A stretch of 64,000 nucleotides of DNA from Bacteroidota bacterium. Lineage in GTDB: Bacteria > Bacteroidota > Bacteroidia > UBA7662 > JAIXUI01. Below the pieces are notes generated by a model. That model was not told the origin of the DNA, did not search any database, and saw only the letters and a program-made list of their open reading frames with translations. The stretch is taken from contig JAIXUI010000054.1 of assembly GCA_027484125.1 (NCBI GenBank), forward strand, positions 1 through 64,000. The letters are read 5' to 3'. Positions 33,439 to 52,371 of this stretch are shown here, one piece after another; positions within the stretch are counted from its first letter, which is position 1; each line of letters begins with the position of its first letter. The position numbers were made by a program, and so were the translations under genes.

Positions 33439-33495
33439 TTTTTTCTTTAGAACCTTCATGGGGAAAATTCACCTCGTTGGGTTTTCCATACTACT

Positions 33496-34134
33496 ATGTT
33501 AAAAAGCCTTCCTCCAACCATTATCCTTGATGTTGACGGTGTCATTTTTGACTCTAATCAACTCAAGGAACAAAATATTAAGCGAGCTGCTTCTCAAGTG
33601 CTTCATGGGGTTGCTCTAAACGATTTTGTCCATCGATTTACCTCTCAAAATGGTATAACCCGACAAACTAAAATAGCCTTTCAATTTGGCGAGAATACTC
33701 CTAATTATCACTTGGTGCTCAACGCTTATGAAGAGCTAAATAATACGAGCTTATACTCAGTTGATTTCACTAATAATGCCAAAGAGATAATAGAAGAGCT
33801 CTCAAGAACATCCAGATTGATAGCTTTATCAGGAGGTGAAGAAAGAGAGGTCAAAAGGCTTTTTGATGTTAAGGAAATCACAGCTTTTTTTGACAAAATT
33901 TGCGGAGGCCCCAAAGGAAAGAAAGAGCACCTTGATGAGCTCAATCTTAAAGGAGAAGTTTGGTTTTTTGGGGATAGCAAAATGGATTATGAAAGCGCCA
34001 AACACATTGGAGCAAAATTCATATTTCTCTCCGATTACACACAAATGACGGATTGGGAAGCTTTCTTTTCAGATAAAAATGAAGTAAGTGTAAGTGATAA
34101 CCTTGCTACTTTTTTTGGATTTAAAAACACTTAA
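33496..34134 (+). CDS. HAD-family phosphatase
   Basis: A 212-residue haloacid-dehalogenase-superfamily hydrolase. Motif I is LDVDGVIFDS with D12 (nucleophile) and D14, motif II is IALSGG, the conserved lysine is in GPKGKK, and motif IV is FFGDSKMDYESA. A helical C1 cap lies about residues 20-85. In nonulosonate and Kdo pathways a HAD enzyme removes the phosphate from the 8- or 9-phosphate before CMP activation, so its position right after a cytidylyltransferase is suggestive. It precedes the GAPDH-like gene by 9 bases. Confidence 0.85.
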   Translation: MLKSLPPTIILDVDGVIFDSNQLKEQNIKRAASQVLHGVALNDFVHRFTSQNGITRQTKIAFQFGENTPNYHLVLNAYEELNNTSLYSVDFTNNAKEIIEELSRTSRLIALSGGEEREVKRLFDVKEITAFFDKICGGPKGKKEHLDELNLKGEVWFFGDSKMDYESAKHIGAKFIFLSDYTQMTDWEAFFSDKNEVSVSDNLATFFGFKNT

Positions 34135-34143
34135 AAACCAGAT

Positions 34144-35199
34144 ATGTTGAAAATTGGAATTAATGGATTCGGAAGAATTGGCCGAGCCATTTTCAGAAAC
34201 AACCTCGACAAGAAGATGTTTGAGGTTGTGGCGATTAACGATGTGAATCCAAACATCAAGAATATTGCCTACACGCTCAACTACGACACTTTGTATGATC
34301 GTCTTCATGTTTTATATAAAGCTGAAGGAAATAGTTTAATGAGTGAAGATGGTCATGTGATTGCTGTCACCCACGAGAAGAGTATCAATGATGTGGATTG
34401 GGCGGCTCATGGTTGTGATTTCGTTATCGACGCTTCTGGTGTTTATAGTAATGTAGTGGATGCACACAAACTAATTGAGCGGAAAGGTGTGAAAAGAGTT
34501 TTTATCACCCATTGCCCCAATAATGTGGACTTTACTATGGTTCTAGGAGCCAATGAAACCGATTTAGATTTAGACAAACAGTTTGTTATTTCTACGTCAA
34601 TCTGTGATGCTACAGCCATAGCTCCAGTCATGAAAGCAGTGTCAGATCGTTTTGGAATTACCCATGGTTATGCTACTACTTTGCACCCTTGGTTAAATTA
34701 CCAAAATTTGATGGATGGGCCTGCTAGTTCTTGGTCAGTGCCTGGTGAAATTTACCACCATTTTGCTCTTGGCCGTTCTGCTATTGGAAACATGATTCCA
34801 AAGCCAACCACTGCCATTACCGCAACTTGTTCAGTGCTTAAGAAACATGGAATCACCGAGGATATTATTGGTTCCTTTTCCTACCGTACTCCAACCGCGA
34901 TTGTTGGTAGTGCTGACTTAACGCTTCACTTAAGAGATCGTGCAGAGACTAAAGACGTTTTGGCGATGTTTGAAGAAATGGAACAAACCCAGTTTTGGCC
35001 TATTATTCATAATAATTGGGAGCCATTAGTTTCTCTAGATTTTAAAAAGGCCGACTTTGCTGCAGTGGTAGATCATCGCTGGACCAATGTCATTCAAGGT
35101 CATATGCTCAAGCTAGTACTTTGGTACGACAATGAATGGGGATATGCCGCTCGAGTTCTCGATCAATTAAAATTGGTTCAGAATAAGTTAGGTCTTTAG
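34144..35199 (+). CDS. Divergent glyceraldehyde-3-phosphate dehydrogenase-like enzyme
   Basis: A 351-residue GAPDH-fold protein in a polysaccharide locus. The NAD domain (INGFGRIGRAIF, INDVN) and the C-terminal WYDNEWGYAARVLD are canonical. The active-site segment reads STSICDATAIAP instead of SNASCTTNCLAP: the nucleophile C154 and the general base H181 remain with the normal spacing of 27, but the phosphate-binding threonine after the cysteine is aspartate and the STG Pi-site loop is KPT. I infer an aldehyde or aldehyde-phosphate dehydrogenase with another substrate (compare erythrose-4-phosphate dehydrogenase). It is followed directly by a terminator. Confidence 0.85.
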   Translation: MLKIGINGFGRIGRAIFRNNLDKKMFEVVAINDVNPNIKNIAYTLNYDTLYDRLHVLYKAEGNSLMSEDGHVIAVTHEKSINDVDWAAHGCDFVIDASGVYSNVVDAHKLIERKGVKRVFITHCPNNVDFTMVLGANETDLDLDKQFVISTSICDATAIAPVMKAVSDRFGITHGYATTLHPWLNYQNLMDGPASSWSVPGEIYHHFALGRSAIGNMIPKPTTAITATCSVLKKHGITEDIIGSFSYRTPTAIVGSADLTLHLRDRAETKDVLAMFEEMEQTQFWPIIHNNWEPLVSLDFKKADFAAVVDHRWTNVIQGHMLKLVLWYDNEWGYAARVLDQLKLVQNKLGL

Positions 35200-35211
35200 T
35201 CTATACAATCA

Positions 35212-35249
35212 GGCCTGCTTATTTTTAAATAAGCAGGCCCAATTTTTTT
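35212..35249 (+). terminator. Rho-independent terminator inside the polysaccharide locus
   Basis: A perfect 13-base stem (GGCCTGCTTATTT at 35212-35224 with its complement at 35227-35239), 2-base loop, followed by CAATTTTTTT. It follows the GAPDH-like stop by 12 bases and ends one base before the next ATG, so it should uncouple the downstream genes unless read through. Confidence 0.93.
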
Positions 35250-35250
35250 A

Positions 35251-36312
35251 ATGGCAACATTGTTTATTATTTCCAATCCTACGCAATATTTAAATGCGAT
35301 AGAGTTGGTAACACAATTTCCAAATCGGTTTACAAACAATAAATTGGTTGTAATTACTGATTTCACCGAAGGAATAGAAAGAATAGATCAAATATTAGCA
35401 AAATCTTATTGGGATGAAAAAAAGATGATCCCCCTTCGATCTTCCGGATATGCACCATCTGATTGGAGAAGTTGGCGTCATGCGTATTTAGCAGCTACTG
35501 AATATATTAAAACGATTACTTATGACCAACTGGTATTAGGTAATTTAGGTGATCCTTTAATTTATGCAATTCTTCAAACTGTTTATAATCCGGCAATAAA
35601 ACCTGTAGTTGTTGATGATGGAACACCTACTATCAATATATTAGCCTGCAGGAGACAAGGTCTGGATTACGAACGTTTTCATTCACCCAGAGGTATTCAA
35701 TTAATAAAGTCACTTCTTGCATTTCGATTTTATATAGGATTTAAAAAACCTCTTAAATCGTATGAGTTTTTTACTTTATTTCCAGCAGAAGCCAGCAACC
35801 AAGATATAGTTGTGCTTAATAAAATGCTCACGCTTAAATCTTTCTATAAAAATCAATCTATCAATCAAAAAATAGTTTATTTCGTAGGTTCTCAAATAGT
35901 AGATAAGGGAATGGTAGATGAAATACTTTATCTAAATGCTCTAAAAAATATTGTAGCTGATTTTCAGTCAAGAGGAAAACAAGTTCAATACATTATACAC
36001 AGAAGCCAATCAAAAGCTTTTCAAAATAAAGTTTCTGAAATTGTTGAAACAATTTCTTTTAATCTTCCACTTGAATTTGCCTTACGCGACAGAGAGGTTC
36101 CGGGTACGTTTGCCGGCTTTTTCTCAACAGCGTTGTTTACTTTGAACGCCATTCATTCTAAGTCAAACGTGATAGCATTTGAATTTCCCTCACAAGCGCT
36201 TCATGATTCTAAATTAGAATCGATTCAAGATGTTTTGGCGATTTATTCACTTTTGAAAAATACAGAGGGAATTAAAATTCGGACAATAGAAACCTCCGGA
36301 AGAATAAACTAG
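35251..36312 (+). CDS. Putative sialyltransferase-like glycosyltransferase, AT-rich
   Basis: A 353-residue protein I assign tentatively to the bacterial sialyl/polysialyltransferase-like GT-B group. It has a D/E-D/E-G-type motif (VVVDDGTPTI, about residue 126), a QYIIHRSQS segment at the position of the HP motif, and GTFAGFFSTALFTL resembling the serine motif that contacts CMP. The HP proline is missing, so the call is cautious. Three sampled 60-base lines have only about 28-32% G+C, lower than neighbouring genes, hinting at separate acquisition. Its ATG sits just after a terminator T-tract with no clear Shine-Dalgarno site. The upstream neuBCA genes supply the expected donor. Confidence 0.55.
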   Translation: MATLFIISNPTQYLNAIELVTQFPNRFTNNKLVVITDFTEGIERIDQILAKSYWDEKKMIPLRSSGYAPSDWRSWRHAYLAATEYIKTITYDQLVLGNLGDPLIYAILQTVYNPAIKPVVVDDGTPTINILACRRQGLDYERFHSPRGIQLIKSLLAFRFYIGFKKPLKSYEFFTLFPAEASNQDIVVLNKMLTLKSFYKNQSINQKIVYFVGSQIVDKGMVDEILYLNALKNIVADFQSRGKQVQYIIHRSQSKAFQNKVSEIVETISFNLPLEFALRDREVPGTFAGFFSTALFTLNAIHSKSNVIAFEFPSQALHDSKLESIQDVLAIYSLLKNTEGIKIRTIETSGRIN

Positions 36313-36315
36313 AAA

Positions 36316-37263
36316 ATGCCTAAAATTGCAATTACAGACTACTTCACTGAAGATAGCGTAGAAAGAGAAATACTTGGAGATTTAGTAGGAATTGGTCCAG
36401 ATTCAGATACTGAAGTTTTATTGGTGTGGCATGAACACATCAACGAAGCATACATCCGTCAATTTCCAAAAGTAAAAGCTGTTCAACGTTATGGCGTTGG
36501 GTATGACACCCTAGATCTTCCATTTCTGTTAAGTAACGGAATCAGGTGTTGCAACAATCCTGATTATGGAACAGATGAAGTTGCTGACACTGCTGTTGCG
36601 ATGATAATGAACATTGCCCGCGGAATAAGTCAGTATAATCATTTGGCTAAAGGCTATTTTGCTGATTGGCAGGAGAATATCAATCCTCTCGTGAAGCGCA
36701 ATAGTGAGACTGTGGTAGGTGTAATAGGTTCAGGGCGAATAGGTGGATCTGTGGTGCTGAAGTGTAATGCGCTCAAATTTAAAACCGTAATTTTTGACCC
36801 TTTCAAGGAGCGTGGCCATGAAAAAATGCTTGGAACCAAACGAGTAGATTCAATAGAAGAGTTACTCGAAATTTCCGATATAATATCCTTGCATGCCCCG
36901 TTAAACTCAAAAACCAAAGGCATGGTTGATGAGCATTTTATTGCGAACATGAAACCAGGAGCCTCCCTTGTAAATACAGCTAGAGGCGGTTTAGTAAAGA
37001 ATTTAGATATACTTTTAGAAGGGTTACTAAGCGGAAAACTCAATCAGGTTGCTTTGGATGTATTGGTTCATGAACCACCTCAATCAGAACCGCTAATCGA
37101 TGCTTGGCGAGCAAACCATCCAGAGATTGCCGGTCGATTAACAATTAATCCTCATACGTCTTACTATTCTCAGGAGTCGTATCTGGAATTGAGAAGAAAT
37201 GCTGCGAAGAATGCACTGCGCCTTTTAGAAGGTAAGGAAGCATATAATATACTTTCTGAGTAA
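36316..37263 (+). CDS. D-isomer 2-hydroxyacid dehydrogenase
   Basis: A 315-residue NAD-dependent 2-hydroxyacid dehydrogenase of the SerA/PdxB/CtBP superfamily. The Rossmann motif is VGVIGSGRIGGSV, and the catalytic Arg-Glu-His set is readable in NTARGGLV, LVHEPPQSEP and NPHTSYYS. It lacks an ACT domain, so it is not a classical SerA. Within a surface-glycan locus it could make or oxidise a 2-hydroxy acid used as a substituent, such as lactate or glycerate. With the GAPDH-like gene it echoes the Epd/PdxB pair that oxidises erythrose 4-phosphate. It starts 3 bases after the preceding stop. Confidence 0.88.
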   Translation: MPKIAITDYFTEDSVEREILGDLVGIGPDSDTEVLLVWHEHINEAYIRQFPKVKAVQRYGVGYDTLDLPFLLSNGIRCCNNPDYGTDEVADTAVAMIMNIARGISQYNHLAKGYFADWQENINPLVKRNSETVVGVIGSGRIGGSVVLKCNALKFKTVIFDPFKERGHEKMLGTKRVDSIEELLEISDIISLHAPLNSKTKGMVDEHFIANMKPGASLVNTARGGLVKNLDILLEGLLSGKLNQVALDVLVHEPPQSEPLIDAWRANHPEIAGRLTINPHTSYYSQESYLELRRNAAKNALRLLEGKEAYNILSE

Positions 37264-37358: not shown

Positions 37359-38492
37359 ATGAAAAAACTGACCATCTGCAACGTTACAAGTATGCACGAC
37401 TGGAACGATGATCGTATTTTTGAGCGAGCATCGGTAGGTTTGGCTGCTGCTGGTCATGATGTTTACTTTGTTGCACCTGCTGACCAAGATAAAATAGTAG
37501 AAGGCGTAAAAATTGTTTCAATTGCACAACGCACGAGATTAGGCAAACATTTAATGGGACCATTTGATGCATTCAGAAAAATGCGGTCCATTAAAGCAGA
37601 TGTTTATCATTTCTATAACCCCAATATGCTTTTAATCATGGGTATTTGGGCTAAGCTTAGTGGCGCTAAAGTGTTTGTAGATATTCATGAGAATTATGAG
37701 TCGAGGGTAGACAAACTGCCACTACCCGGCTTTTTAAGAAGGCCTTTGATAAAGTTCTATCGCTGGCTTGAGAATACATTATGTGGCATGTTGTCGGGTG
37801 TTACCGTTGTTACCGAAAGCATGCGTCAGAAAATGTTGGCTTCCGGAGTTCCTATTTTGGTTGTCGATAATGTTCCGTACTTAAAGCGATTAGAAGGAAT
37901 TGAATTGGCTAAAGAAAAACATATTCGTCCTACGATAATAACGTCAGGTTCTCATTCAGAAGCCAGAAACTGCTTGGAAGCAGTAGAGGCACTTCCAATG
38001 ATTGTTAAAGAAATACCAGATGTTCAAATGATGTTTGTAGGACGATTTACTCCTGCAAGCTATGAACAGGTTTTGAAAGACAAGGCTAAGGAATTAGGTG
38101 TTGAAGCCAATTTCTCTACTGAAGGAATGCTGCCTTGGTTGGAGAATTTTAAACGTGTTTCAAGAGCGCATATTGGGTGTGTTTTCTATAATGATAATCT
38201 TAATAACAGGGTTACCTTGCCCAATAGGCTATATGAATACATGTATTGTGGGCTTGCTGTTTTAGGTGAGAATTTTCCGGAGGTGAAGAAAGTATTAGAT
38301 AAGTCTAATGCTGGAGCTGTAGTTGATTCTAAAAATCCTGAATCCATTGCAAAAGCGTCTATTTCTTTATTGAAGGAAGCTTCTACACGAGAGCAATGTT
38401 CAGCTAATGCGATGTACGCAGTTAAGACCACCTATAACTTTGAAAGGGCGCTGGACGAGCTAATTCGCTTTTATCAAAAATCGCTAGCATGA
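37359..38492 (+). CDS. Glycosyltransferase family 4
   Basis: A 377-residue GT-B glycosyltransferase. The N-terminal domain has the HDWNDDRIFERAS and FVDIHENYESRVDK segments; the C-terminal nucleotide-sugar-binding domain (from about 185) has IITSGSHSEARN, MMFVGRFT, and the late LPNRLYEYMYCGLAVLGENFPEV, which is the E-x7-E-like donor-binding region. It is a retaining transferase acting at the cytoplasmic face on undecaprenyl-linked intermediates. Donor and acceptor are not predictable. A 95-base gap precedes it, and its stop overlaps the CapK-like gene by 4 bases. Confidence 0.88.
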   Translation: MKKLTICNVTSMHDWNDDRIFERASVGLAAAGHDVYFVAPADQDKIVEGVKIVSIAQRTRLGKHLMGPFDAFRKMRSIKADVYHFYNPNMLLIMGIWAKLSGAKVFVDIHENYESRVDKLPLPGFLRRPLIKFYRWLENTLCGMLSGVTVVTESMRQKMLASGVPILVVDNVPYLKRLEGIELAKEKHIRPTIITSGSHSEARNCLEAVEALPMIVKEIPDVQMMFVGRFTPASYEQVLKDKAKELGVEANFSTEGMLPWLENFKRVSRAHIGCVFYNDNLNNRVTLPNRLYEYMYCGLAVLGENFPEVKKVLDKSNAGAVVDSKNPESIAKASISLLKEASTREQCSANAMYAVKTTYNFERALDELIRFYQKSLA

Positions 38493-39832
38493 ATAACCTA
38501 AAAGCGCTTGCCTTTAATGCTGCTTTATTTTATGAGCATCTTACGAATAAAGAAGCTACCAAGGCCAATCAAATACTGGATCGTGCGGATCAGCTAGACA
38601 GAAATGGCATCCTTCAAATGAAAGAGGAGGCTTTTCAAGATATCATCAAGCACACATTAGAATACTCTTCCTACTATAAAGAGATAGCTCAACAACGTGG
38701 ATTAACAGCAAGTGATTTTAAATCAATTGCGGATTTGAATAAATTGCCTTATTTAACCAAAGACATCATCAAATCAAGAAGGAACGACATTATAGTCAAT
38801 AATATTCCCGAAAGTGAATGCATCAAACGAACTTCTGGTGGCACCACAGGAGAACCTATTTACATAGAAGTAGATAAGCAATGCCGGACCAATGATCTTT
38901 ACTTCTATTACAGAGGGTTAAGGTGGATGGGTTGGCAGCCTGGGTACCAGATGGTGAAATTTTTTGGCGGTAGTTTATCAGGTCAAAACGCTCCTACATT
39001 AAGAAATAAGATTAAGAAATACCTGTCTGGAGAAGTTTTTCTTCCTGCATTTAATTTCAATAAAGACACCGCACTTCAATACTTGGATACCGTAAAAGCT
39101 CAAGGCGAAACCTTTGTTCAAGGGTATGTTTCTTCTATTTATAACCTAGCTGTTTTAACCAAAGAACTTAACTACAAAGGGCTGAAAATAAAAGGAGCAT
39201 TTACCACAGCAGAACAACTTCCCGATGAACAAGCACAGTTCGTCAAAGAAGTACTTGGTTGTGATGTTAAAGCTTTTTACGGATGTGCAGAAATTAACTG
39301 TCTTGGTTTTCAAACCATTATGGGTGGTAGATACATCAGTCCTGATGAGATTATTCATATTGAATCGACCCAACATCCAGATTTACCTTTGGATAATGCG
39401 TTTCTTCTAACCTCTCTTTTCAACAAAAAAACACCGCTACTTCGTTATCTCAATGGTGACAATGGAACGTTAGGTTCACATGGTAAGTACTCCACCATAG
39501 AAGAGTTGTCTGGCCGGTCGGCGGATATGTTCCGAAGAAAAGATGGAAGTTTAATTTCTTCTATTGTGGCGACCCAAACCATGCAAATTACCGGGTTGAC
39601 TCATAAAGTAAAGAAATATCAACTCTGGCAAACCGCTATTGATAAGGTAGAAATTCCTTATCTGCCATTTCTAGAATCTGAACCGCTAAGTGCAGAGGAA
39701 CGCAAACACATCGAGGCCATGTATAAAAAACGTTTAGGTGACGAATTTGAAGTAACCATGTATCTGTCCGATCAGTTTGTTCAAAGTGCTTCAGGTAAAC
39801 ATCGCCTCATGATTAACAAACTAAATTCGTAA
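38489..39832 (+). CDS. CapK/PaaK-type AMP-dependent ligase
   Basis: A 447-residue adenylate-forming protein of the phenylacetate-CoA ligase/CapK family, which is frequent in capsule loci. The ATP-binding loop is RTSGGTTGEPIYIE (about residue 112), followed by FFGGSLSG, GAFTTAEQLP and FYGCAEINCLGFQ; the C-terminal domain (about 345-447) is complete. It should activate a carboxylic acid as adenylate or thioester, but the acid is unknown. It overlaps the glycosyltransferase before it and precedes the ATP-grasp gene by 6 bases. Confidence 0.88.
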   Translation: MNNLKALAFNAALFYEHLTNKEATKANQILDRADQLDRNGILQMKEEAFQDIIKHTLEYSSYYKEIAQQRGLTASDFKSIADLNKLPYLTKDIIKSRRNDIIVNNIPESECIKRTSGGTTGEPIYIEVDKQCRTNDLYFYYRGLRWMGWQPGYQMVKFFGGSLSGQNAPTLRNKIKKYLSGEVFLPAFNFNKDTALQYLDTVKAQGETFVQGYVSSIYNLAVLTKELNYKGLKIKGAFTTAEQLPDEQAQFVKEVLGCDVKAFYGCAEINCLGFQTIMGGRYISPDEIIHIESTQHPDLPLDNAFLLTSLFNKKTPLLRYLNGDNGTLGSHGKYSTIEELSGRSADMFRRKDGSLISSIVATQTMQITGLTHKVKKYQLWQTAIDKVEIPYLPFLESEPLSAEERKHIEAMYKKRLGDEFEVTMYLSDQFVQSASGKHRLMINKLNS

Positions 39833-39838
39833 ATAGGC

Positions 39839-40894
39839 ATGAAACAGTATTTGCTTCCACTATATTTTCAATACAGATTTACCAAATATTTCTTTCAATT
39901 CATAAAGCCAATTGGCATTAAGAACCTTATTTGGTGTTATTTTAATGGGTTTTTTCCTAAGAACTTCGTTCTGTTTAATTTGGCCAAAAACAATCCCAAA
40001 TTATTTGTAAGTGATTTTGAAGAAAACTTTAGAATATCCAGAATCAATAAAAATCCACAGGTGCTGAATAATAAGTTAGTATTTCCTGAAATTATTGGAT
40101 CATTCTTTAAGGCGCCCAAAATACATGCTTTAATTTATCAAGGAAGATTTTTGCCTTATAAGCCCGAATCTAATTTTACAGAATCGGCGGCACTTGAATA
40201 TTTGAAATCCGGAAATGCTATCATCATGAAACCAATAGATGGTGATGGTGGAATAGGAATTGTAAAAGTGAACTTCGATACCTACCAAAACCAATATAAT
40301 TGGAATGGAAACTTCATTCATGAGGCGGAATTATTACGTAGGTTTTCAACATTGAACAACTATTTGGTCAGTGAATTTGTGAAGCAAGGTGAATATACGT
40401 CAGCGCTTTACGCTAATGCTGTGAATACGATCAGGATTATGTCCATGATTGATCCGGAAAATAGCCAGCCTTTTGTTGCTTTTGCAGCTCATAGAATAGG
40501 CAACGATAAGTCGGCTCCGGTTGATAACTGTGCAATGGGTGGATACACTGCCCCAATTGACGTTAAGACGGGAAAAATGGGAGCTGCCTCAGCTTCTAAA
40601 TTCGAAGGAATGGAAAAGCCGCATTATCCTGTTCATCCAAACTCGGGAAACCCGATTGAGGGAATTGTTATTCCGCATTGGGAGCAACTCAAACAAGAAA
40701 TCTGTGCACTTCATGGACGGCTCAGTTATATCAATTACATCGGTTGGGACATCGTTTATGCTGCCGACGGACACTTCTATCTGCTTGAAGGAAACGACCA
40801 AGTAGATTTAAAGCTTCATCAAGTTCATAGCCCGCTTTTACTCGATGAAGCGGTCAAAAAATTCTACACTTACCATAAGGGAATTAAAGGATAA
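39839..40894 (+). CDS. Sugar-transfer-associated ATP-grasp protein
   Basis: A 351-residue protein of the ATP-grasp family found in polysaccharide loci (ATPgrasp_ST-like). Key parts are KPIDGDGGIGIVKV (glycine-rich loop, about 125-140), NTIRIMSMID, the DNCAMGGYTAPIDVKTG segment, HPNSGNPIEGIVIPHWEQL and the end IGWDIVYAADGHFYLLEGN with the metal-binding acids. ATP-grasp enzymes activate a carboxylate as acyl phosphate and join it to an amine or thiol. With CapK, FemAB-like and AsnB-like neighbours it suggests amide-linked substituents on the glycan. It shares one base with the next gene. Confidence 0.85.
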   Translation: MKQYLLPLYFQYRFTKYFFQFIKPIGIKNLIWCYFNGFFPKNFVLFNLAKNNPKLFVSDFEENFRISRINKNPQVLNNKLVFPEIIGSFFKAPKIHALIYQGRFLPYKPESNFTESAALEYLKSGNAIIMKPIDGDGGIGIVKVNFDTYQNQYNWNGNFIHEAELLRRFSTLNNYLVSEFVKQGEYTSALYANAVNTIRIMSMIDPENSQPFVAFAAHRIGNDKSAPVDNCAMGGYTAPIDVKTGKMGAASASKFEGMEKPHYPVHPNSGNPIEGIVIPHWEQLKQEICALHGRLSYINYIGWDIVYAADGHFYLLEGNDQVDLKLHQVHSPLLLDEAVKKFYTYHKGIKG

Positions 40895-41895
40895 TGGCGG
40901 GGAAGGTAAGTTTTGAATTTCACATCTATCAGCCAGAGCAATTTGGTGCATGGGATGAGTATGTGCGTTTGCACCCCAATGGAACACTTTTTCACACCAC
41001 TTCTTGGTTGAAAAGAATCAAAGGTGAACTTTCGGTCTTTGTAGTTGAGAAAGAAGGAATAATAGTTGGCGGATATGCCGGCTTATCCTATATAAAAAAT
41101 AGGCAAAAGGGATTTCATGTTCCACCATTAACGCCCTACACCGGACCATTGGTAAGCAGATCTTGGGAGAAAAAATCTGTTCAAGAAGAGCATGATGTTT
41201 TAAACTTTCTTTTAGAAAATCTCCCCAACGCTCCCCATTGGGATTTCATGTATGCTGTTGAAGATACGTTTATTCACCCCTTCCATTGGAAAGGATTTAG
41301 CTCTTCAATGGGCGTATCTTATGTAATCAATAAGCCCTACGACACATGGCTCTCCGGGATGAATAAAAACAAAATTCGAGAGTATAAAAAACTTGAAGAA
41401 GCGGTTCAAAAAGGAGAATTAAAAGTAACGCTTAATGGGCCAATAGCTCCAATTCTGGATCTTAATCAAGTTACAGCTTCCAGAAATGGGTTCTCTTTTG
41501 ACCGTCCAACTTTAGAAGCACTATTTTCTCCAACAGATCATTCATGTACCCGAACCATGTTAATCGAATCTGCGGAATTTGGGCCACTTAGTGGTTCTAT
41601 CATGGTGTTCGATGACAAAGGAATGTACAACCTCATCAATGGTTCTGTAAGAGTAGACCATCCCGTGTATAAGACTATCAACCTTTATGCACTTTGGGAT
41701 GGGATTCAATTCGCGCTTTCGAGTGGAAGATTCTTCGATTTTGAAGGCTCGATGCTCAAAGGGGTAGAATCGTTTTATCGATTAATGGGCGGCGAGTATC
41801 AATACAAAATGAGGTTTCAAAAAACCAATTCTATCCCATATTTGCTAGCTCGCTTATTTCTTCAGTTTAAAAGCGAACGTAAATCCCTTAAATAA
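40894..41895 (+). CDS. FemAB/GNAT-fold acyltransferase-like protein
   Basis: A 333-residue protein of the FemAB/BioF2-like acetyltransferase clan. Typical parts are TLFHTTSWLKRI near residue 30, a basic KNKIREYKKLEEAVQKG helix, SGSIMVFDDKGMYNLINGS, and the end DFEGSMLKGVESFYRLMGGE. FemAB relatives transfer aminoacyl groups from tRNA to peptidoglycan; related glycan-locus proteins may N-acylate sugars. The donor here is unknown. It overlaps both neighbours by one base, so it belongs with the ATP-grasp and AsnB-like genes as one functional block. Confidence 0.82.
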   Translation: MAGKVSFEFHIYQPEQFGAWDEYVRLHPNGTLFHTTSWLKRIKGELSVFVVEKEGIIVGGYAGLSYIKNRQKGFHVPPLTPYTGPLVSRSWEKKSVQEEHDVLNFLLENLPNAPHWDFMYAVEDTFIHPFHWKGFSSSMGVSYVINKPYDTWLSGMNKNKIREYKKLEEAVQKGELKVTLNGPIAPILDLNQVTASRNGFSFDRPTLEALFSPTDHSCTRTMLIESAEFGPLSGSIMVFDDKGMYNLINGSVRVDHPVYKTINLYALWDGIQFALSSGRFFDFEGSMLKGVESFYRLMGGEYQYKMRFQKTNSIPYLLARLFLQFKSERKSLK

Positions 41896-43664
41896 TGATT
41901 GCCGGATTTTATTGGGGAAATGAGCAAGATGTGCCTGCTGTAACGCAATTATGGGAGGCTGCTGGATTGAACACCATCAATATGGGCAGCGTTGCGGGAA
42001 AACAACTTTTGTTGGCCCCAAAAATTCTGATAGAAACAACTTTGGTGGTAACCTCCGCCGAATGGAAAGCAACCGCGGTGGGCGTATTTATTTACAAAGG
42101 ATTTGTTGCAGAAGAGGCTGTTCGATTAGCTTTAACGGATCTTGAACATCATCGATTTGATGAACTTGCGGTAAGGGGGACATTTGCATTCCTTGTCTAT
42201 AATGAAGAGCATCTTAAAATTTGGCTTGATGCAACAGTTATACAGCATTTGTATGTGAATAAAGCCCAAAAAGCACTTTCTACTTCTTTCCTAGCTTTGG
42301 TAGAAACGCAATCAAATAGAACTCCTCAACTAGAATCTTTCCAAGAACTGTTACTAACGGGCACTCAGATTGGCCCTGAAACCTTGGTAAAAGGAATTTT
42401 CAAAACAGAGCCTCATTATATTCCTGAGATAGCCGGTGTAGAAATTAAGATTTGCAAGCGGCCTACTCAGGAATCAGACTACAAGTCAAGAGAAGAAGCT
42501 CTTGACCATGCTCAAGCCCATTTAGAAGCCTGTTTCAACGATTACCGCGGTTTGGCTACCGCTCACGGAGCGCTGCTGGGTTTAACAGGTGGCCTCGATA
42601 GTAGGTTGAACTTAGCTGTTGCTTTGAAAAAGTGGCCAAAGCCCATTGAAGTTTATACGAATTGCAGAATCCGAAAAGGTAAAGAGCAGGTAATTGATGA
42701 GCCACTAGCTCAAAAAGCAGCAGAAAGTGTTGGCTTGACCTTGCGCGCAGGATGGATGGTTCATCCTTTAGATATGGATGATGTGCAACTGGCGGAGGTT
42801 ATGGAGCAGTCCTATCAGTTTTTTGATGGCCATGGCAGAATGCACGCCCAATGGTTTGAGGATTACAATACTGCAAGATTTAAGAAAGCGCTGATGGGTA
42901 ATCGGCTTTTCGGATTGAGTGGAATTGGGGGAGAACAGTACCGGAATTTTGAAGGAATGCTAACTCCAACTTGGAGTCGGGATTATTTTATTCGATATCA
43001 TCTTGCCTTGAATTATTGTGGTCCTGTTTTTAAAAATCAACAGGCTGAAGATTCCTTTGCTGATTCGCTTGGTGAACGGGTTTGGAGTAAAATTAAACCT
43101 GCAAAATCAGACAGAGTTTCACACTCGGAAGTCAAACAATACCTCAACGAAATACTGATAAGCAATCGTTTAGGAGCAAGAAACAATGCCGAGAACCGCT
43201 TGGCTTGGTTTGCTAGCCCTTTTACAGACCCCGGTGTGAGTATTCCTGCTTATGGCTTAACCAAATGGCTGGGAAGTTCTATCGAGTTTGAAAAAGATTT
43301 GATAGTAAGGCTTAATGATTCATTAGCGAATGTTCCTCTTGATTATGGCATACGCCCTAAAGACGACTTATCGTTAAAAATGAAAATCAAACCTTGGGTT
43401 CGCCATTTCACTCCTTCAAGATTGTGGGTGGACAAGCGTATTGGCCCATTGTCGGAACCGGGTTCTTATCAATTGTTTAATGAGCTTTCGGCTCAATCCA
43501 CCTTAATAAAAACTTGTGTGGAAGAAGTGAACAAACTTTCACTTCCCATCCATTTGAATAGACTTTGTGCATTGCCTGATTTTATGCCGATTGTAGTCAA
43601 TATGGGCTACTTTTTACTTAAGCTCAAGCAACCTTCTTTAAGTACTAGAGTAAAATATGAATGA
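41895..43664 (+). CDS. Asparagine-synthetase-like amide ligase lacking the glutaminase cysteine
   Basis: A 589-residue AsnB-superfamily protein. The C-terminal adenylating domain has the PP-loop GLTGGLDSR (T231 to S236). The N-terminal half (about 1-190) keeps the class II amidotransferase layout, but the protein starts MIAGFYW rather than MCG, so the nucleophilic cysteine is absent, and no other early cysteine could replace it. Either ammonia or another amine is the acceptor, as in beta-lactam synthetase relatives. In loci making GalNAcA, AsnB-like proteins amidate the uronic acid (for example WbpS and Francisella WbtH). It overlaps both neighbours. Confidence 0.85.
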   Translation: MIAGFYWGNEQDVPAVTQLWEAAGLNTINMGSVAGKQLLLAPKILIETTLVVTSAEWKATAVGVFIYKGFVAEEAVRLALTDLEHHRFDELAVRGTFAFLVYNEEHLKIWLDATVIQHLYVNKAQKALSTSFLALVETQSNRTPQLESFQELLLTGTQIGPETLVKGIFKTEPHYIPEIAGVEIKICKRPTQESDYKSREEALDHAQAHLEACFNDYRGLATAHGALLGLTGGLDSRLNLAVALKKWPKPIEVYTNCRIRKGKEQVIDEPLAQKAAESVGLTLRAGWMVHPLDMDDVQLAEVMEQSYQFFDGHGRMHAQWFEDYNTARFKKALMGNRLFGLSGIGGEQYRNFEGMLTPTWSRDYFIRYHLALNYCGPVFKNQQAEDSFADSLGERVWSKIKPAKSDRVSHSEVKQYLNEILISNRLGARNNAENRLAWFASPFTDPGVSIPAYGLTKWLGSSIEFEKDLIVRLNDSLANVPLDYGIRPKDDLSLKMKIKPWVRHFTPSRLWVDKRIGPLSEPGSYQLFNELSAQSTLIKTCVEEVNKLSLPIHLNRLCALPDFMPIVVNMGYFLLKLKQPSLSTRVKYE

Positions 43665-44604
43665 GAATCTGAGAAAAACGCTTTTGTACTTTCAGCCAAT
43701 TGAAACGTACTGGCGACTTTCCAATCCTGATAACCATCGGTTTTTAAAAGAAAGCCCTATTGGGCTTTATCCACTTTCTTTTAAGGATCGAATAGCACAG
43801 GGCCATTACCCAGCATTTGATGAAGAGGGAATACCAGTCTTTCCGTTTTTAAAAGGAGGTAAACTGGTACACTTCTATACAGGAATGTGCAGTTTTAGCT
43901 TTGGGTTATGGGAGCTTTATTTGCTTACCGGAGATCAAAGCCACGCTGACAGACTCCTCAAAGTTGCAGGATTTATACTTAGAACAGCCATAGATGTTCC
44001 CGGCGAAGCGGCTGTTTTGCTTGATTTTGACGACGAAACAGAAACCACGGGAATTACTTGTGCCATGAATAATGGCGAAGCTATTTCTGTATTGAGCCGA
44101 GCGTTTGTCCTCACTCAAGACGATCGTTATAAAAAGTTGGCGCTGAAGTTGGCCAAAGCATTAGAGTTTCCTTATGGCCCGCATGGCCTCAATGGACATC
44201 TTCCCGATGGCGGAGAGATATGGTACCTCGAAGGAGGCAAGTACATTCTAAACGGACACATTTACACCTTATTTGGTTTATATGAACTAGGTAAAATTGC
44301 GGATGAGGTTTGGATTAAAACGCTCTTTGAAAAAGGATACGCTTCTGTAGCTTCTGCTTTGTCAAGATTTGATTCTGGTTACTGGTCTTATTACTGGCTC
44401 AACAAGCCTTATTATGTAGCAAGTATCATGTATCACAATTTGCACATTTGTCAGCTGGATGCTTTATATCAACTAACAGGAAACGAGGTGTTCAAGCAAT
44501 ATGCAGATCGTTTTCGAAGCCACGCAGCATCTCCGATTAACAGAGCTCGCGCTGCTTATAGGATAGCGAATGCCAAGTTTACTCGAATGCTAGGTAAACG
44601 ATGA
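43657..44604 (+). CDS. D-glucuronyl C5-epimerase-like protein
   Basis: A 315-residue protein matching the C-terminal catalytic region of D-glucuronyl C5-epimerases, the enzymes that turn glucuronate into iduronate in heparan-type polymers. Recognisable segments are LVHFYTGMCSFSFGLWELY, the tyrosine-rich SGYWSYYWLNKPYYVAS and MYHNLHICQLDALYQLTG. There is no signal peptide and no membrane helix, so it would act in the cytoplasm on lipid-linked glycan rather than after export. The substrate is probably one of the locus uronic acids. It overlaps the AsnB-like gene by 8 bases and the next GT by 4. Confidence 0.78.
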   Translation: MNENLRKTLLYFQPIETYWRLSNPDNHRFLKESPIGLYPLSFKDRIAQGHYPAFDEEGIPVFPFLKGGKLVHFYTGMCSFSFGLWELYLLTGDQSHADRLLKVAGFILRTAIDVPGEAAVLLDFDDETETTGITCAMNNGEAISVLSRAFVLTQDDRYKKLALKLAKALEFPYGPHGLNGHLPDGGEIWYLEGGKYILNGHIYTLFGLYELGKIADEVWIKTLFEKGYASVASALSRFDSGYWSYYWLNKPYYVASIMYHNLHICQLDALYQLTGNEVFKQYADRFRSHAASPINRARAAYRIANAKFTRMLGKR

Positions 44605-45788
44605 AAAGAAAAGTCTGTTTGTTTGTGGGAGGTTTTCCAAGCGAAGACAATCCGGCACATGGCGTTTTCAATCTTCGTGCAGCACAAGGTTTGGCACCTT
44701 TGGTAGATCTAACGGTTGTGCAACTACGAATGTGGCTTCCCAAAAGAAAGTTTAAAAGTGTTAGCCAGCATCCTGACGGCTTTAAGCTTATCGTACTATG
44801 TATTCCTTTTATTCCGAAGTTTGAAAACGCACTTCTGAATCTTAATTCTCTGGTTATAGCCATTATTTCTTCTTTACTCCTTGCTAAAGAAAGAAGGCAA
44901 TTTGAAGTGGTACATTCTGTTAGTACACTTACTGGTATTGTACCCGCACTTTGGCCAGGAAAGCAAAAGTTTGTTCATGTGGTACAGTCTATAGGGGCAG
45001 ATTTAAACTCCGAAATGCCTGTTGTGAAAAACAGCTGGGCGGTTAAAAAGCTTCTGAAATCAATTGACTCTGCTACTTTTAATAGTAAGCAGCTGCTATC
45101 GCAATACGAAAGCTTATTAGGAAAAGCCCCCCATTCAAGAATAATCTACCGTGGCGTAAACGTAGACAAATTCACTGCACAACCCTTTCCAAAGGAAGAA
45201 TCAATTTCTTTTCTTTTTATCGGAGGGCTTCCCGCTTACCCTAATTTTGTATTCAAGGATAATACGAAGGGAGGAAAAACACTGATGGAGGCATGGAAAC
45301 AAATAGACGCGATGGAATTTCAACTGCGTCCGAGGTTGGTGTTTGCGGGTCCAGAATCGGTAAAACCCGAGTCGGAAATGTGGAGAAAATCGCTTCGATA
45401 TCCTGAAAGTGTTGAAATGCCCGGTGTCATAAAACCGGCAGATCTTCAGAAAAGAATGGCTGAAAGTGCGGCAGTAATTGTTCCATCTATGGAAGAAGGC
45501 CTACCCAATGCTGGAATGGAAGCAGCAGCTTCAGCCAGAATGCTGATTGCCACTCCGGTAGGCGGAATCCCTGAAATTACCAGGGACCGCGAAACGGCTT
45601 TGATTTTTCCGGCTGGAAATGCCAATGAATTGGCAAAGTGCTTAGAAGAAGCCATTCGAAATCCTGAAACCACCCGCCAACGTGGTGAAAAAGCCAGAGA
45701 ATTGATGGTATTGCACTTTCGCCATACCGATTTTGCTCCTCAATATGCGAGTTTGTATGAGGAGTTAATCAACTTGAAAAAAGACTAA
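44601..45788 (+). CDS. Glycosyltransferase family 4
   Basis: A 395-residue GT-B enzyme. Readable parts are the N-terminal LFVGGFPSEDNPAHGVFN, YRGVNVDKF at the domain linker, FLFIGGLP, and the donor-binding MEEGLPNAGMEAAASARMLIATPVGGIPE, which contains the conserved E-x7-E pattern of GT4. It should be a cytoplasmic retaining transferase adding one sugar of the repeat unit. Donor unknown. Overlaps of 4 bases upstream and one base with the epimerase gene downstream show tight coupling. Confidence 0.9.
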   Translation: MKRKVCLFVGGFPSEDNPAHGVFNLRAAQGLAPLVDLTVVQLRMWLPKRKFKSVSQHPDGFKLIVLCIPFIPKFENALLNLNSLVIAIISSLLLAKERRQFEVVHSVSTLTGIVPALWPGKQKFVHVVQSIGADLNSEMPVVKNSWAVKKLLKSIDSATFNSKQLLSQYESLLGKAPHSRIIYRGVNVDKFTAQPFPKEESISFLFIGGLPAYPNFVFKDNTKGGKTLMEAWKQIDAMEFQLRPRLVFAGPESVKPESEMWRKSLRYPESVEMPGVIKPADLQKRMAESAAVIVPSMEEGLPNAGMEAAASARMLIATPVGGIPEITRDRETALIFPAGNANELAKCLEEAIRNPETTRQRGEKARELMVLHFRHTDFAPQYASLYEELINLKKD

Positions 45789-46909
45789 TGAAAAAGAAAA
45801 TACTGTTTGTTTTTGGCACCAGACCTGAAGCCATAAAGATGGCTCCTCTGGTTCGCTCTTTTGCTGCATTAACAGATCGCTTCGATGTTCGCGTTTGTTT
45901 AACCGGACAACATCGCCAGATGCTCGATCAGGTGATGGAGTTTTTTGATTTGAAGGCCGACTACGACCTCAATCTGATGTTGCCTAATCAAACCCTTTTC
46001 GACATTACAGCTAATGCGCTAAAAGGGCTTGAGCCGGTACTTGAAGATTTTCAGCCAGACGGCGTATTTGTTCAAGGCGACACCACCACCGCTTTTGCTG
46101 GAGCACTTGCTGCATTTTATAAGAAGGTGAAAGTGCTTCACTTAGAAGCCGGGCTGCGTTCCGGACAGAAATACTCCCCTTTCCCTGAAGAAATTAATAG
46201 GATTCTTGCTGGCCACATAGCAGATTTCCACTTCGCACCAACTCCTCAAGCGCAGCAGAATTTGGCTTCTGAGGGAATCAAAGACAACGTTTGGGTGGTA
46301 GGGAATACTGTAATTGATGCCTTGCTCTTGGGGTTAGACCTCATTAAAACACGTGGTGAAAAACCATATCAGGAGAAATTTAGTTTTCTAAAACCAGGTT
46401 TGAGAACCATTTTGGTAACTGGCCATAGAAGGGAAAGCTTTGGAAAGCCTTTCGAAGCCATTTGTAATGCTATTAACACGCTCGTGAATGAATTCGATGA
46501 CGTGCAAGTGGTTTACCCGGTTCATTTGAATCCGAACGTTAGAGAAGTGGTTTACAAAACACTTTCCGGAAACGACCGGATTCACCTGATTGAGCCACTT
46601 GACTACCCCTATTTGATTTGGCTGATGAGCCAAAGCTACCTGGTGCTCACCGATTCCGGTGGTATTCAGGAAGAAGCACCATCCTTAGGTAAGCCGGTAT
46701 TGGTAATGCGTGAAGTAACAGAGCGAATAGAAGGGATTCAAGCCGGTACAGCGCTTTTAGTTGGAACTGATGAAGAGAAAATTCTTATGGAAGCGCGTAA
46801 GCTACTGACTTCACAAGAAGCGTATGCTCAGATGTCTAACGCTACGAATCCTTATGGGGATGGAACTACTTCTGCAATGATTGCTGATTTGACTTGGAAT
46901 AACCTTTAA
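45788..46909 (+). CDS. wbpI: Non-hydrolysing UDP-GlcNAc-type 2-epimerase (WecB/WbpI)
   Basis: A 373-residue GT-B-fold 2-epimerase with the WecB hallmarks FGTRPEAIKMAPLV, LTGQHRQMLDQVM, VQGDTTTAFAGALAA, HLEAGLRSG, EEINR, GHRRESFGKP and LTDSGGIQEEAPSLGKPVLVMR. WecB converts UDP-GlcNAc to UDP-ManNAc; WbpI performs the same inversion on UDP-2,3-diacetamido-glucuronate. Because wbpB follows by 16 bases and wbpD and wbpE lie within 7 kb, WbpI is the more economical reading, though sequence alone does not separate them. No other UDP-ManNAc-using gene is obvious nearby. Confidence 0.88.
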   Translation: MKKKILFVFGTRPEAIKMAPLVRSFAALTDRFDVRVCLTGQHRQMLDQVMEFFDLKADYDLNLMLPNQTLFDITANALKGLEPVLEDFQPDGVFVQGDTTTAFAGALAAFYKKVKVLHLEAGLRSGQKYSPFPEEINRILAGHIADFHFAPTPQAQQNLASEGIKDNVWVVGNTVIDALLLGLDLIKTRGEKPYQEKFSFLKPGLRTILVTGHRRESFGKPFEAICNAINTLVNEFDDVQVVYPVHLNPNVREVVYKTLSGNDRIHLIEPLDYPYLIWLMSQSYLVLTDSGGIQEEAPSLGKPVLVMREVTERIEGIQAGTALLVGTDEEKILMEARKLLTSQEAYAQMSNATNPYGDGTTSAMIADLTWNNL

Positions 46910-46925
46910 TTTGACCACCAGAACG

Positions 46926-47960: not shown

Positions 47961-47974
47961 GATTGCCTCCGGAA

Positions 47975-48751
47975 ATGAAGATTATTGTTTCACACGATGT
48001 TGACCACCTTCGATTAGGGGAACATCTCACAGACCGTTATTTGCCGGGAACGCTTTATCGTTCGATAATTTCGAAGATGAAAGGCGAGCCCTTTAATTTC
48101 TGGAAGCGTTTCGCCTTCAGGACGGAGAGGCTACGCGAGCTTAGGGCATTTAATCAAAGTTTCGGCATCAGTGAAACCTATTTTTTCGCTACACGAAAAG
48201 GATTGTCACTTTCCTATGCGTATCAAGAAGCAGCACCACATATCAAGCGACTTTTTCTTGAAGGCGTAGAGATAGGGCTTCACGGCCAATCTCCCGACAG
48301 TTTAGAAGGGCTTCAGGAGGAGGTTCGTAGGTTGAAGGAAATTCATCAAGGAGAGCTTGTTGGCATTCGCAATCACTACCTTAGAAAAACCCCAAACACC
48401 TTGAAGTACATGGAGGCTTGTGGTTTTCGATATGATTCTACACATATGGGAATTGAAGCTCCATTCCAATCGGGTTCGTTGTGGGAAATTCCAATTTCAG
48501 TTATGGATGTAACAAGCCTTTCTCCCATCCATAATCATTTTCCTGAAGCTTGGGAAAACACCATGAAAACCTTGGAAGAAGCTCATGCAGCTAATTTGCC
48601 CTATTTTGTAGTGAACTTTCACGACCTATACTTCTCTGATGGTTGGAAAATGCATCGAAAATGGTACACCACCTTAATTGAGCATTTCCACCAAAAACAA
48701 TATTCCTTCATTAGTTTTAGAGAAGCGCTGACAGAACTTAGTCAGGCCTAA
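47975..48751 (+). CDS. NodB-like polysaccharide deacetylase family protein
   Basis: A 258-residue protein starting MKIIVSHDVDHLR, whose SHDVDH is the NodB metal motif. Other family features are ETYFFATR, EIGLHGQSPDS (second histidine motif), GIRNHYLR and FVVNFHDLYFSD. Members of this cytoplasmic subfamily occur in polysaccharide loci and may deacetylate an N-acetyl sugar or lipid-linked glycan. I chose the ATG at 47975; a TTG at 47963 would add four residues. A second, unrelated-looking deacetylase-type gene lies at 50.6 kb. Confidence 0.78.
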   Translation: MKIIVSHDVDHLRLGEHLTDRYLPGTLYRSIISKMKGEPFNFWKRFAFRTERLRELRAFNQSFGISETYFFATRKGLSLSYAYQEAAPHIKRLFLEGVEIGLHGQSPDSLEGLQEEVRRLKEIHQGELVGIRNHYLRKTPNTLKYMEACGFRYDSTHMGIEAPFQSGSLWEIPISVMDVTSLSPIHNHFPEAWENTMKTLEEAHAANLPYFVVNFHDLYFSDGWKMHRKWYTTLIEHFHQKQYSFISFREALTELSQA

Positions 48752-48762
48752 CGGCTAGTGAT

Positions 48763-50019: not shown

Positions 50020-50598
50020 ATGAAACAATACTTTGCCCATGAGACAGCAGTCGTTGATGAAGGCTGCGAAATAGGAGAAGGCACCAAAATTTGGCACTTT
50101 TCTCACGTGATGTCCAATTGCAAACTTGGAAAAAACTGCAATTTGGGACAGAATGTAGTCGTGTCACCCGAAGTGGTGTTGGGAAATAATGTGAAAGTTC
50201 AGAACAATGTTTCCATCTACACCGGGGTCACATGCGATGATGATGTATTTCTTGGCCCTTCCATGGTATTCACCAATGTTACCAATCCTCGTTCAGCGGT
50301 AAACCGTCGCGGACAGTATTCAAGAACCCACGTAGGAAAAGGAGCAAGCATCGGAGCCAATGCTACCATTGTTTGTGGCCACGATATTGGGGCGTTTGCC
50401 TTTATAGGAGCGGGTTCTGTAGTTACTAAGAACATACCAGCCTACGCCTTGGTGGTTGGAAATCCGGCTCGTCAAATTGGTTGGATGTCGGAATATGGAC
50501 ATAGGCTTGAGTTTAATGATCAAGGACTGGCCATTTGCCCAGAAAGTGGTGACCAGTATAAGCTATCCGAAAACGGAGTTAGTAAGGTAGAAGCATGA
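50020..50598 (+). CDS. wbpD: UDP-2-acetamido-3-amino-glucuronate N-acetyltransferase (WbpD)
   Basis: A 192-residue left-handed beta-helix acetyltransferase with hexapeptide repeats through about residue 150: IGEGTKIWHFSHVMSN, CNLGQNVVVS, NNVSIYTGVTCDDDVFLGPSMVF and GAGSVVTKNIPAYALVVGNPARQIGWM. The IWHFSHVM and TNVTNPRS segments are typical of WbpD/WlbB, which acetylate the 3-amino group in the UDP-ManNAc3NAcA pathway. Its start is adjacent to the GT stop, and its end overlaps the next gene by four bases. Confidence 0.92.
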   Translation: MKQYFAHETAVVDEGCEIGEGTKIWHFSHVMSNCKLGKNCNLGQNVVVSPEVVLGNNVKVQNNVSIYTGVTCDDDVFLGPSMVFTNVTNPRSAVNRRGQYSRTHVGKGASIGANATIVCGHDIGAFAFIGAGSVVTKNIPAYALVVGNPARQIGWMSEYGHRLEFNDQGLAICPESGDQYKLSENGVSKVEA

Positions 50599-51320
50599 TA
50601 GTGGCAACTAGTAGGGCCGATGATATGCAGGATTACAGCGCATTGTTGCGCCAATTCCTGGATGCCGGATATACATTTGTAGATTATCACCACCAGTCCA
50701 AAGCTGAAGGAGAAATAATCCTACGTCATGACATTGACTATGATACCGGATTTGCATTGGAAACAGCAAAGAAAGAAGCGGTACTTGGCATCCAAGCTAC
50801 TTATTTCTTTTTGTTACGGTCTGAATTTTACAACCCTTATTCAGAAGTAGATTTCCGCAATATCATGGAAATCAAAAGTCTGGGTCATACCATCAGCATT
50901 CACTTTGACCCCTTGCTGTATGTAGATTTTCACGGCGGATTGGCTGAAGAAGTCAGCATGTTTAAGGCCATGTTTGGGGAAGAAGTAAAAATGATCAGCT
51001 TGCACCGCCCCAACGAGTATTTTCAAGCACTAACAACACCAATCAACGGAATCATGCATACCTATATGCCACGCTTCTTTAAAGAACTGGCCTATTATGC
51101 AGATTCGACCGGTAAATGGCGCTTTGGGCATCCGCTTGATTCGGAAGTATTTAATCAGAAGAAAAGTCTTCAGCTTTTGATTCATCCGGTATGGTGGTGT
51201 GTTCCGGGAGCGGATCAACATGAAAAACTCAGGCATTACTTTTCGACCCGAAACACCCGCATGAAAGATCTTTTTTCTGCTAACTGTATTCCATTTAGAG
51301 CAATTTATGACAGCATCTGA
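50595..51320 (+). CDS. Polysaccharide deacetylase-like protein
   Basis: A 241-residue soluble protein with RHDIDYDTGFALETA, a NodB-type Asp-containing motif, then YFFLLRSEFYNP, ISIHFDPLLY (second histidine motif) and ISLHRPNEYF, ending LLIHPVWWC. This is a distinct deacetylase-like family common in sugar-modification loci, of unproven activity. It overlaps wbpD by four bases and the formyltransferase gene by 14, so it may prepare an amino group for formylation. Confidence 0.7.
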   Translation: MIVATSRADDMQDYSALLRQFLDAGYTFVDYHHQSKAEGEIILRHDIDYDTGFALETAKKEAVLGIQATYFFLLRSEFYNPYSEVDFRNIMEIKSLGHTISIHFDPLLYVDFHGGLAEEVSMFKAMFGEEVKMISLHRPNEYFQALTTPINGIMHTYMPRFFKELAYYADSTGKWRFGHPLDSEVFNQKKSLQLLIHPVWWCVPGADQHEKLRHYFSTRNTRMKDLFSANCIPFRAIYDSI

Positions 51321-52302: not shown

Positions 52303-52371
52303 ACAAGTTTTCCGAAGACGGTTCGGCAGTTAATTTTGAAGCAGGAAAGGCGTGAAGCGCCAAACTCAACT

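Follow-up and report, generated by a model that had tools for sequence, protein, structure and literature searches.

A rare Bacteroidota gene set built around a cysteine-less AsnB-like protein: a candidate system for amide-linked decoration of surface polysaccharides

Gene content of the locus

The stretch of Bacteroidota DNA analysed here (the window; 64,000 nucleotides) carries an operon-like run of genes on one strand, from 19062 to 60652, that extends far beyond the four adjoining genes singled out in the initial annotation. These four encode a CapK protein, an ATP-grasp ligase of the ATPgrasp_ST family, a FemAB-type transferase and an AsnB-like protein (Table 1). All four lie on the forward strand with spacings of +6, −1 and −1 bases, in agreement with the positions and gaps given in the initial annotation, and its assignment of each to a family is borne out by profiles, folds and motifs. 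Close packing is the rule across the whole locus: the upstream glycosyltransferase gene overlaps CapK by 4 bases, the AsnB-like gene overlaps the C5-epimerase-family gene by 8 bases, and 23 of the 37 gaps within the run are no longer than 10 bases. The four genes are therefore not singled out by their spacing, and their adjacency was rejected as evidence.

Table 1. Genes of the four-gene block and selected neighbours (window coordinates).
Product	Position	Strand	Length or basis
GT4-type glycosyltransferase, directly 5′ of CapK	37359..38492	+	
PaaK/CapK-type adenylate-forming enzyme	38489..39832	+	447 aa
ATPgrasp_ST (sugar-transfer associated ATP-grasp) carboxylate-amine ligase	39839..40894	+	PF14397
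FemAB/FemX-fold tandem-GNAT transferase	40894..41895	+	AlphaFold/Foldseek, profile
AsnB-like amide synthetase without Cys nucleophile	41895..43664	+	TIGR01536 trace, fold
D-glucuronyl C5-epimerase C-terminus family protein	43657..44604	+	PF06662, E 1.5e-35
Glycosyltransferase, 3′ of the C5-epimerase-family gene	44601..45788	+	homologue in L004
NodB/CE4-like deacetylase-like protein	47963..48751	+	homologue in L004, profile
Second NodB/CE4-like protein	50595..51320	+	homologues in other loci, profile

Other parts of the run are occupied by genes of sugar metabolism. The segment 23609–28749 contains TviB/TviC-like, NeuB, NeuC and PseF-like cytidylyltransferase genes, which together would serve to make a GalNAcA-type uronic acid as well as a sugar of the sialic-acid type. 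In 32686–37263, genes for a cytidylyltransferase, a HAD phosphatase, a GAPDH-like protein, an unmatched protein and a 2-hydroxyacid dehydrogenase adjoin one another and may provide a donor of unusual type, either a small acid or a polyol; the GAPDH-like protein is divergent, lies far below all GAPDH cut-offs and has STSICDATA in its catalytic Cys region. Finally, 45788–53490 encodes WecB, a WlbA-like protein, a hexapeptide acetyltransferase, an aminotransferase and a formyltransferase (51307), probably a route to a diamino-uronic acid or an N-formyl sugar.

The window CapK bears the adenylation motifs SGGTTGEP (116), YGCAE (264) and GRSAD (342), together with the C-terminal lysine of PaaK/CapK enzymes in an SGK sequence (437). 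It resembles phenylacetate-CoA ligases (PDB 4r1l, E 6e-8) and lies below all NCBIfam cut-offs, scoring 35.6 bits against the PaaK model TIGR02155, whose cut-off is 646.3. The ATP-grasp protein is a member of PF14397 (E 1.6e-41; 142.8 bits, curated cut-off 31.4), and its metal site is kept as D304...E317-x-N319.

Recurrence among Bacteroidota genomes

A scan of genome contigs with an alignment of AsnB-like proteins yielded at least five distinct further loci (L003, L004, L005, L006 and L008), all from Bacteroidota; L003 and L007 are one locus and were counted once. A divergent relative in L029 (genome G211; E 3.5e-16), located at 9267–10602, is cut by the contig end and was left out of the counts; a deacetylase-like gene lies nearby. 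Across the six loci among the matches listed, the full-length AsnB-like proteins are 24–34% identical. The protein is rare, being found in 2 of 395 genomes of the class and 1 of 396 of the phylum, so that the statistics are small.

In all five other loci listed, the ATPgrasp_ST gene is the immediate neighbour of the AsnB-like gene, while in the window the FemAB gene stands between them. The ATPgrasp_ST proteins exceed the PF14397 cut-off in all six AsnB-like loci among the matches listed (E 5e-30 to 2e-41), and each of the five other loci among these matches has a FemAB-like gene no more than about 7 kb from the AsnB-like one. Both partners are infrequent in the class sample: the ATPgrasp_ST family occurs in 6 of 148 other genomes (~4%) and FemAB of the window type in 7 of 197 (~4%). 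The probability that all five other genomes would hold ATPgrasp_ST, or this FemAB, by chance is ~1e-7 for each with the neighbourhood ignored, a rough figure that takes the five genomes as independent, most of them being from outside the class sample.

The set is missing from control loci. Neither CapK nor FemAB was found near ATPgrasp_ST in five loci without an AsnB-like gene (two of them on short contigs), and none of FemAB, ATPgrasp_ST and AsnB-like was found beside other CapK genes in 13 distinct loci (14 examined, those with the nearly identical CapK proteins of L071 and L073 being counted as one). The initial annotation had proposed a co-occurrence search as a check. Its outcome supports the Cys-less AsnB, ATPgrasp_ST and FemAB, which occur together beyond chance in six of six loci among the matches listed; it does not support CapK as a fixed member, since half of these loci have a RimK-like ATP-grasp instead and all 13 control relatives lack the partners.

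Three of the loci (the window, L006 and L008) have CapK; in L003, L004 and L005 an unrelated RimK-like ATP-grasp protein takes its place. In L004, the RimK-like gene lies exactly between ATPgrasp_ST and a glycosyltransferase gene 62% identical to that at 37359 in the window, with FemAB also alongside; a homologue of the glycosyltransferase at 44601 (37%) directly follows the AsnB-like gene of the same locus. The window CapK clusters weakly with those of L006 and L008 (support 69/79). On the six-taxon AsnB tree, the window pairs with L004, and L006 with L008. A single clade of CapK loci was rejected by the AU test both for the AsnB-like protein (p 0.001) and for the ATP-grasp (p 5e-5), and thus CapK and the RimK-like protein appear to have been swapped at least twice on the AsnB tree, which with six taxa is suggestive, not firm. 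Such repeated swapping suggests, in turn, that the two proteins do an equivalent activating job.

A literature search that excluded the survey of Iyer et al. 2009 (Mol Biosyst 5:1636) found no description of the four-gene combination; this survey reportedly deals with ATP-grasp, GS-like and GNAT-like amidoligases, and is cited where polysaccharides and proteins are said to be modified by amide bonds. FemAB and AsnB-type genes occur together in much the same way in the XrtA/PEP-CTERM exopolysaccharide loci (TIGR03019 FemAB, TIGR03108 amidotransferase), from which the present loci differ in that the AsnB-like protein has no Cys and FemAB is below the TIGR03019 cut-off: the relatives in L005–L008 match this model weakly (E 1e-6 to 5e-16, all under the cut-off), and the window FemAB matches neither TIGR03019 nor any family in a Pfam scan. 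The gene set is a real and rare variant of polysaccharide amide-decoration systems, undescribed in the literature searched, and its chemistry we infer.

The FemX-fold and AsnB-like proteins

Despite the lack of family matches, the window FemAB has the tandem GNAT fold of FemABX aminoacyl-tRNA transferases. Its AlphaFold model (pLDDT 76) retrieves FemX in Foldseek (probability 1.00, E 1e-13), and a profile built from six FemAB sequences retrieves Staphylococcus aureus FemX (PDB 6snr, E 8e-20). In the alignment, a C-terminal [FY]K motif is seen in L003, L005, L006, L008 and FemXSa, while the window and L004 have FY, with Tyr at the position of Lys. Lys305 of FemXWv is reported to be catalytic (PMC12945691), and the Lys of the motif probably corresponds to it: the residue count fits, with the FemXWv alignment ending before the motif. 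Because this Lys is missing, the use of tRNA by the FemAB proteins of the window and L004 is doubtful. The window FemAB may take a non-tRNA donor, for which CapK could furnish an acyl-AMP or acyl-CoA; this is no neat fit, since L004 shares the FY motif yet is without CapK.

Tandem GNAT folds are shared by FemX and by the aminoacyl-tRNA-dependent transferases of the Orf11/Sbb17 type from the BD-12 and streptothricin pathways, all of which differ from the window FemAB by the motif Lys that is Tyr here. Orf11 glycylates an amino-sugar intermediate, and streptothrisamine is such an intermediate to which a FemABX-type enzyme transfers glycine from Gly-tRNA (PMC12945691).

The AsnB-like protein is very divergent: TIGR01536 is its only family match (E 2e-6), no family is recognised in a Pfam scan, and single-sequence searches of PDB and of plasmids with it gave no match. 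It begins with MIAGFY and therefore lacks the Cys2 nucleophile that defines glutamine-hydrolysing asparagine synthetase B. The loss of Cys, already noted in the initial annotation, extends to the five full-length relatives, being found in six of six such members among the matches listed (the window, L003–L006 and L008). The ATP-binding motif of the synthetase domain, usually of the SGGxDS type, is kept as TGGLDSR at 231, and TGGxDSR is invariant in all six; this GGxDSR PP-loop and a loop SGIGGEQYRN are unchanged among AsnB-like proteins that are only about 30% identical. The equivalent of the catalytic Lys of AsnB and beta-lactam synthetase was sought in the window protein and not located. Canonical Cys-bearing AsnB genes accompany the Cys-less gene in L003 (3644–5494) and L005 (10181–12103).

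A structural model of the AsnB-like protein (pLDDT 72) has a two-domain AsnB fold without Cys, as in beta-lactam and carbapenam synthetases. Foldseek gave 1q15, 1q19 and 1m1z as best matches (probability 1.00, TM 0.44–0.60), ranking carbapenam synthetase, TsnB9, beta-lactam synthetase and E. coli AsnB in this order. In the profile search, too, the best PDB chain was CarA (1q15, E 0.0014), so that 1q15 is both the best sequence match and the best structural match. Given that carbapenam and beta-lactam synthetases have the folds nearest to the model, the AsnB-like protein likely forms an amide from an amine that is not ammonia derived from glutamine. The likeness to CarA and beta-lactam synthetase comprises the two-domain AsnB fold, the missing Cys nucleophile and the retained PP-loop. 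These enzymes differ in performing an intramolecular beta-lactam closure and in belonging to antibiotic clusters, whereas the AsnB-like proteins occur in polysaccharide loci, always beside an ATP-grasp ligase (six loci among the matches listed).

Possible acceptors and the proposed module

Besides the enzymes above, a NodB/CE4-like deacetylase-like gene is present in all six AsnB-like loci among the matches listed, and also in the partial L029. These genes were identified by homology to that at 50595 (L003, L005, L006, L008, L029 and L058–L060) or to that at 47963 (L004). A profile of the family, built from the two window proteins and their relatives, finds chitin and peptidoglycan deacetylases in PDB (E 4e-4 to 0.01); for the 47963 protein, deacetylase membership comes from the profile (E 4e-4), phmmer by itself giving only E 0.1. 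With such a gene in all six listed loci, an amino sugar whose amine has been freed by deacetylation is no less plausible as the acceptor than a uronic carboxylate, and we place it somewhat ahead. The glycylation of an amino-sugar intermediate by a FemABX-type enzyme (PMC12945691) provides a precedent.

The uronic acid named as the acceptor in the initial annotation is a real possibility, though on balance an unlikely one. An amine or amino acid would then be amide-linked to the C6 carboxylate, activated by the AsnB-like protein or ATPgrasp_ST, and the C5-epimerase would act later. The window does have uronic acid precursor genes, namely TviB-like UDP-GlcNAc 6-dehydrogenase and TviC-like 4-epimerase genes at 23609–25890 and WlbA/WecB-like genes at 45788–47960, and the C5-epimerase-family gene overlaps that for the AsnB-like protein. 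There is, moreover, a precedent: the ATP-grasp domain of Campylobacter jejuni Cj1438 (Cj1438C, a C-terminal TupA-like amidoligase) amidates glucuronic acid of the capsule with serinol-P or ethanolamine-P (PMC11800379). It resembles the present case in making an amide bond on a sugar by ATP-grasp within a surface polysaccharide cluster, and differs in that one enzyme suffices, with GlcA and amine phosphates as its substrates; the available part of the source establishes no PF14397 membership and describes no AsnB-like, FemAB or CapK partner (PMC11800379). Against the uronic carboxylate, the genes annotated around the AsnB-like gene in the five other loci listed include none that was recognised as a uronic-acid gene, such precursor genes being present elsewhere in all six genomes; the C5-epimerase family (PF06662), a single-copy gene in the window genome, is absent from the five other genomes searched and was rejected as part of the conserved set; and the recurrent deacetylase-like gene is left unexplained.

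It is improbable, but conceivable, that the locus makes two decorations, one by FemAB with the deacetylase and a DUF354-type transferase, the other by the AsnB-like protein with ATPgrasp_ST and CapK or its RimK-like substitute. FemAB and the AsnB/ATP-grasp pair may indeed be two independent functions, because in L058–L060 a core of FemAB, DUF354-type transferase and deacetylase exists without AsnB-like or ATPgrasp_ST, and the FemAB genes of the AsnB-like loci among the matches listed do not form one clade in the tree. Nevertheless, FemAB of this uncommon type is found in six of six AsnB-like loci among these matches, and in the window its gene, flanked by those for ATPgrasp_ST and the AsnB-like protein, overlaps each of them by 1 base.

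Simple amidation, in which the Cys-less AsnB would use free ammonia or that released by another glutaminase to form a primary uronamide, the remaining genes being unrelated, is highly improbable. AsnB-type enzymes are able to use ammonia instead of glutamine, and a canonical Cys-bearing AsnB is near in L003 and L005; but the window locus has none (those of the same genome are on contigs C29 and C35), the pairing with a second carboxylate-amine ligase is conserved, and the closest folds are mostly of enzymes with a nucleophile other than glutamine-derived ammonia. The view of the initial annotation that this is not simple amidation is supported as regards glutamine-dependent amidation, for which the Cys is missing. 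Lastly, a degenerate, non-catalytic scaffold retained for complex formation is scarcely credible given the invariant PP-loop and SGIGGEQYRN loop at ~30% identity, even if the divergence from every Pfam family and the catalytic Lys that was not located would suit it.

The best explanation, to which we assign a chance slightly below even, is that Bacteroidota have a rare module, passed about between lineages as it appears, by which an (amino)acyl side chain is joined through an amide to the repeat unit of a surface polysaccharide. The side chain would be attached in the cytoplasm. At the core would stand two ATP-dependent carboxylate-amine ligases: ATPgrasp_ST, expected to proceed via an acyl phosphate, and the Cys-less AsnB, which would proceed via an acyl adenylate and, like carbapenam and beta-lactam synthetases, take an amine that does not come from glutamine as ammonia. 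The FemX-fold transferase would attach a further aminoacyl or acyl group, and an interchangeable activating enzyme (CapK here, RimK-like ATP-grasp elsewhere) would supply an acid that varies. As acceptor we favour an amine that the recurrent CE4-like deacetylase would unmask over a uronic carboxylate. Established here are the families and folds, the missing Cys, the recurrence and the exchange of CapK for the RimK-like protein, whereas the order of steps, the substrates, the acceptor and the presence of the product on the polysaccharide are inferred. Against the proposal speak the small number of full-length loci listed (six, at 24–34% AsnB identity), the missing FemAB Lys in the window and L004, the occurrence of this FemAB type without the AsnB/ATP-grasp pair in L058–L060, the dependence of the deacetylase assignment on a profile hit of E 4e-4, and the catalytic Lys of the AsnB-like protein that was not located.

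In a more far-reaching form, which we consider rather unlikely, this would be a previously undescribed modular system of “glycan peptide synthesis” in Bacteroidota, where unrelated enzymes, namely an acyl-phosphate ligase, an acyl-adenylate ligase and a tandem-GNAT transferase, work together; once the deacetylase had freed a surface sugar, they would assemble on it a short side chain, peptide-like or acylated, and the CapK/RimK-like slot would vary the acid and hence the surface.

If the proposal is true, a Cys-less AsnB beside ATPgrasp_ST would be a signature that predicts amide-linked decorations of surface polysaccharides from sequence alone. It would also add to the AsnB family a divergent branch unseen by Pfam, whose nearest structural relatives are beta-lactam makers, and the CapK/RimK exchange would represent a testable way in which these bacteria vary the side chain while keeping the machinery.
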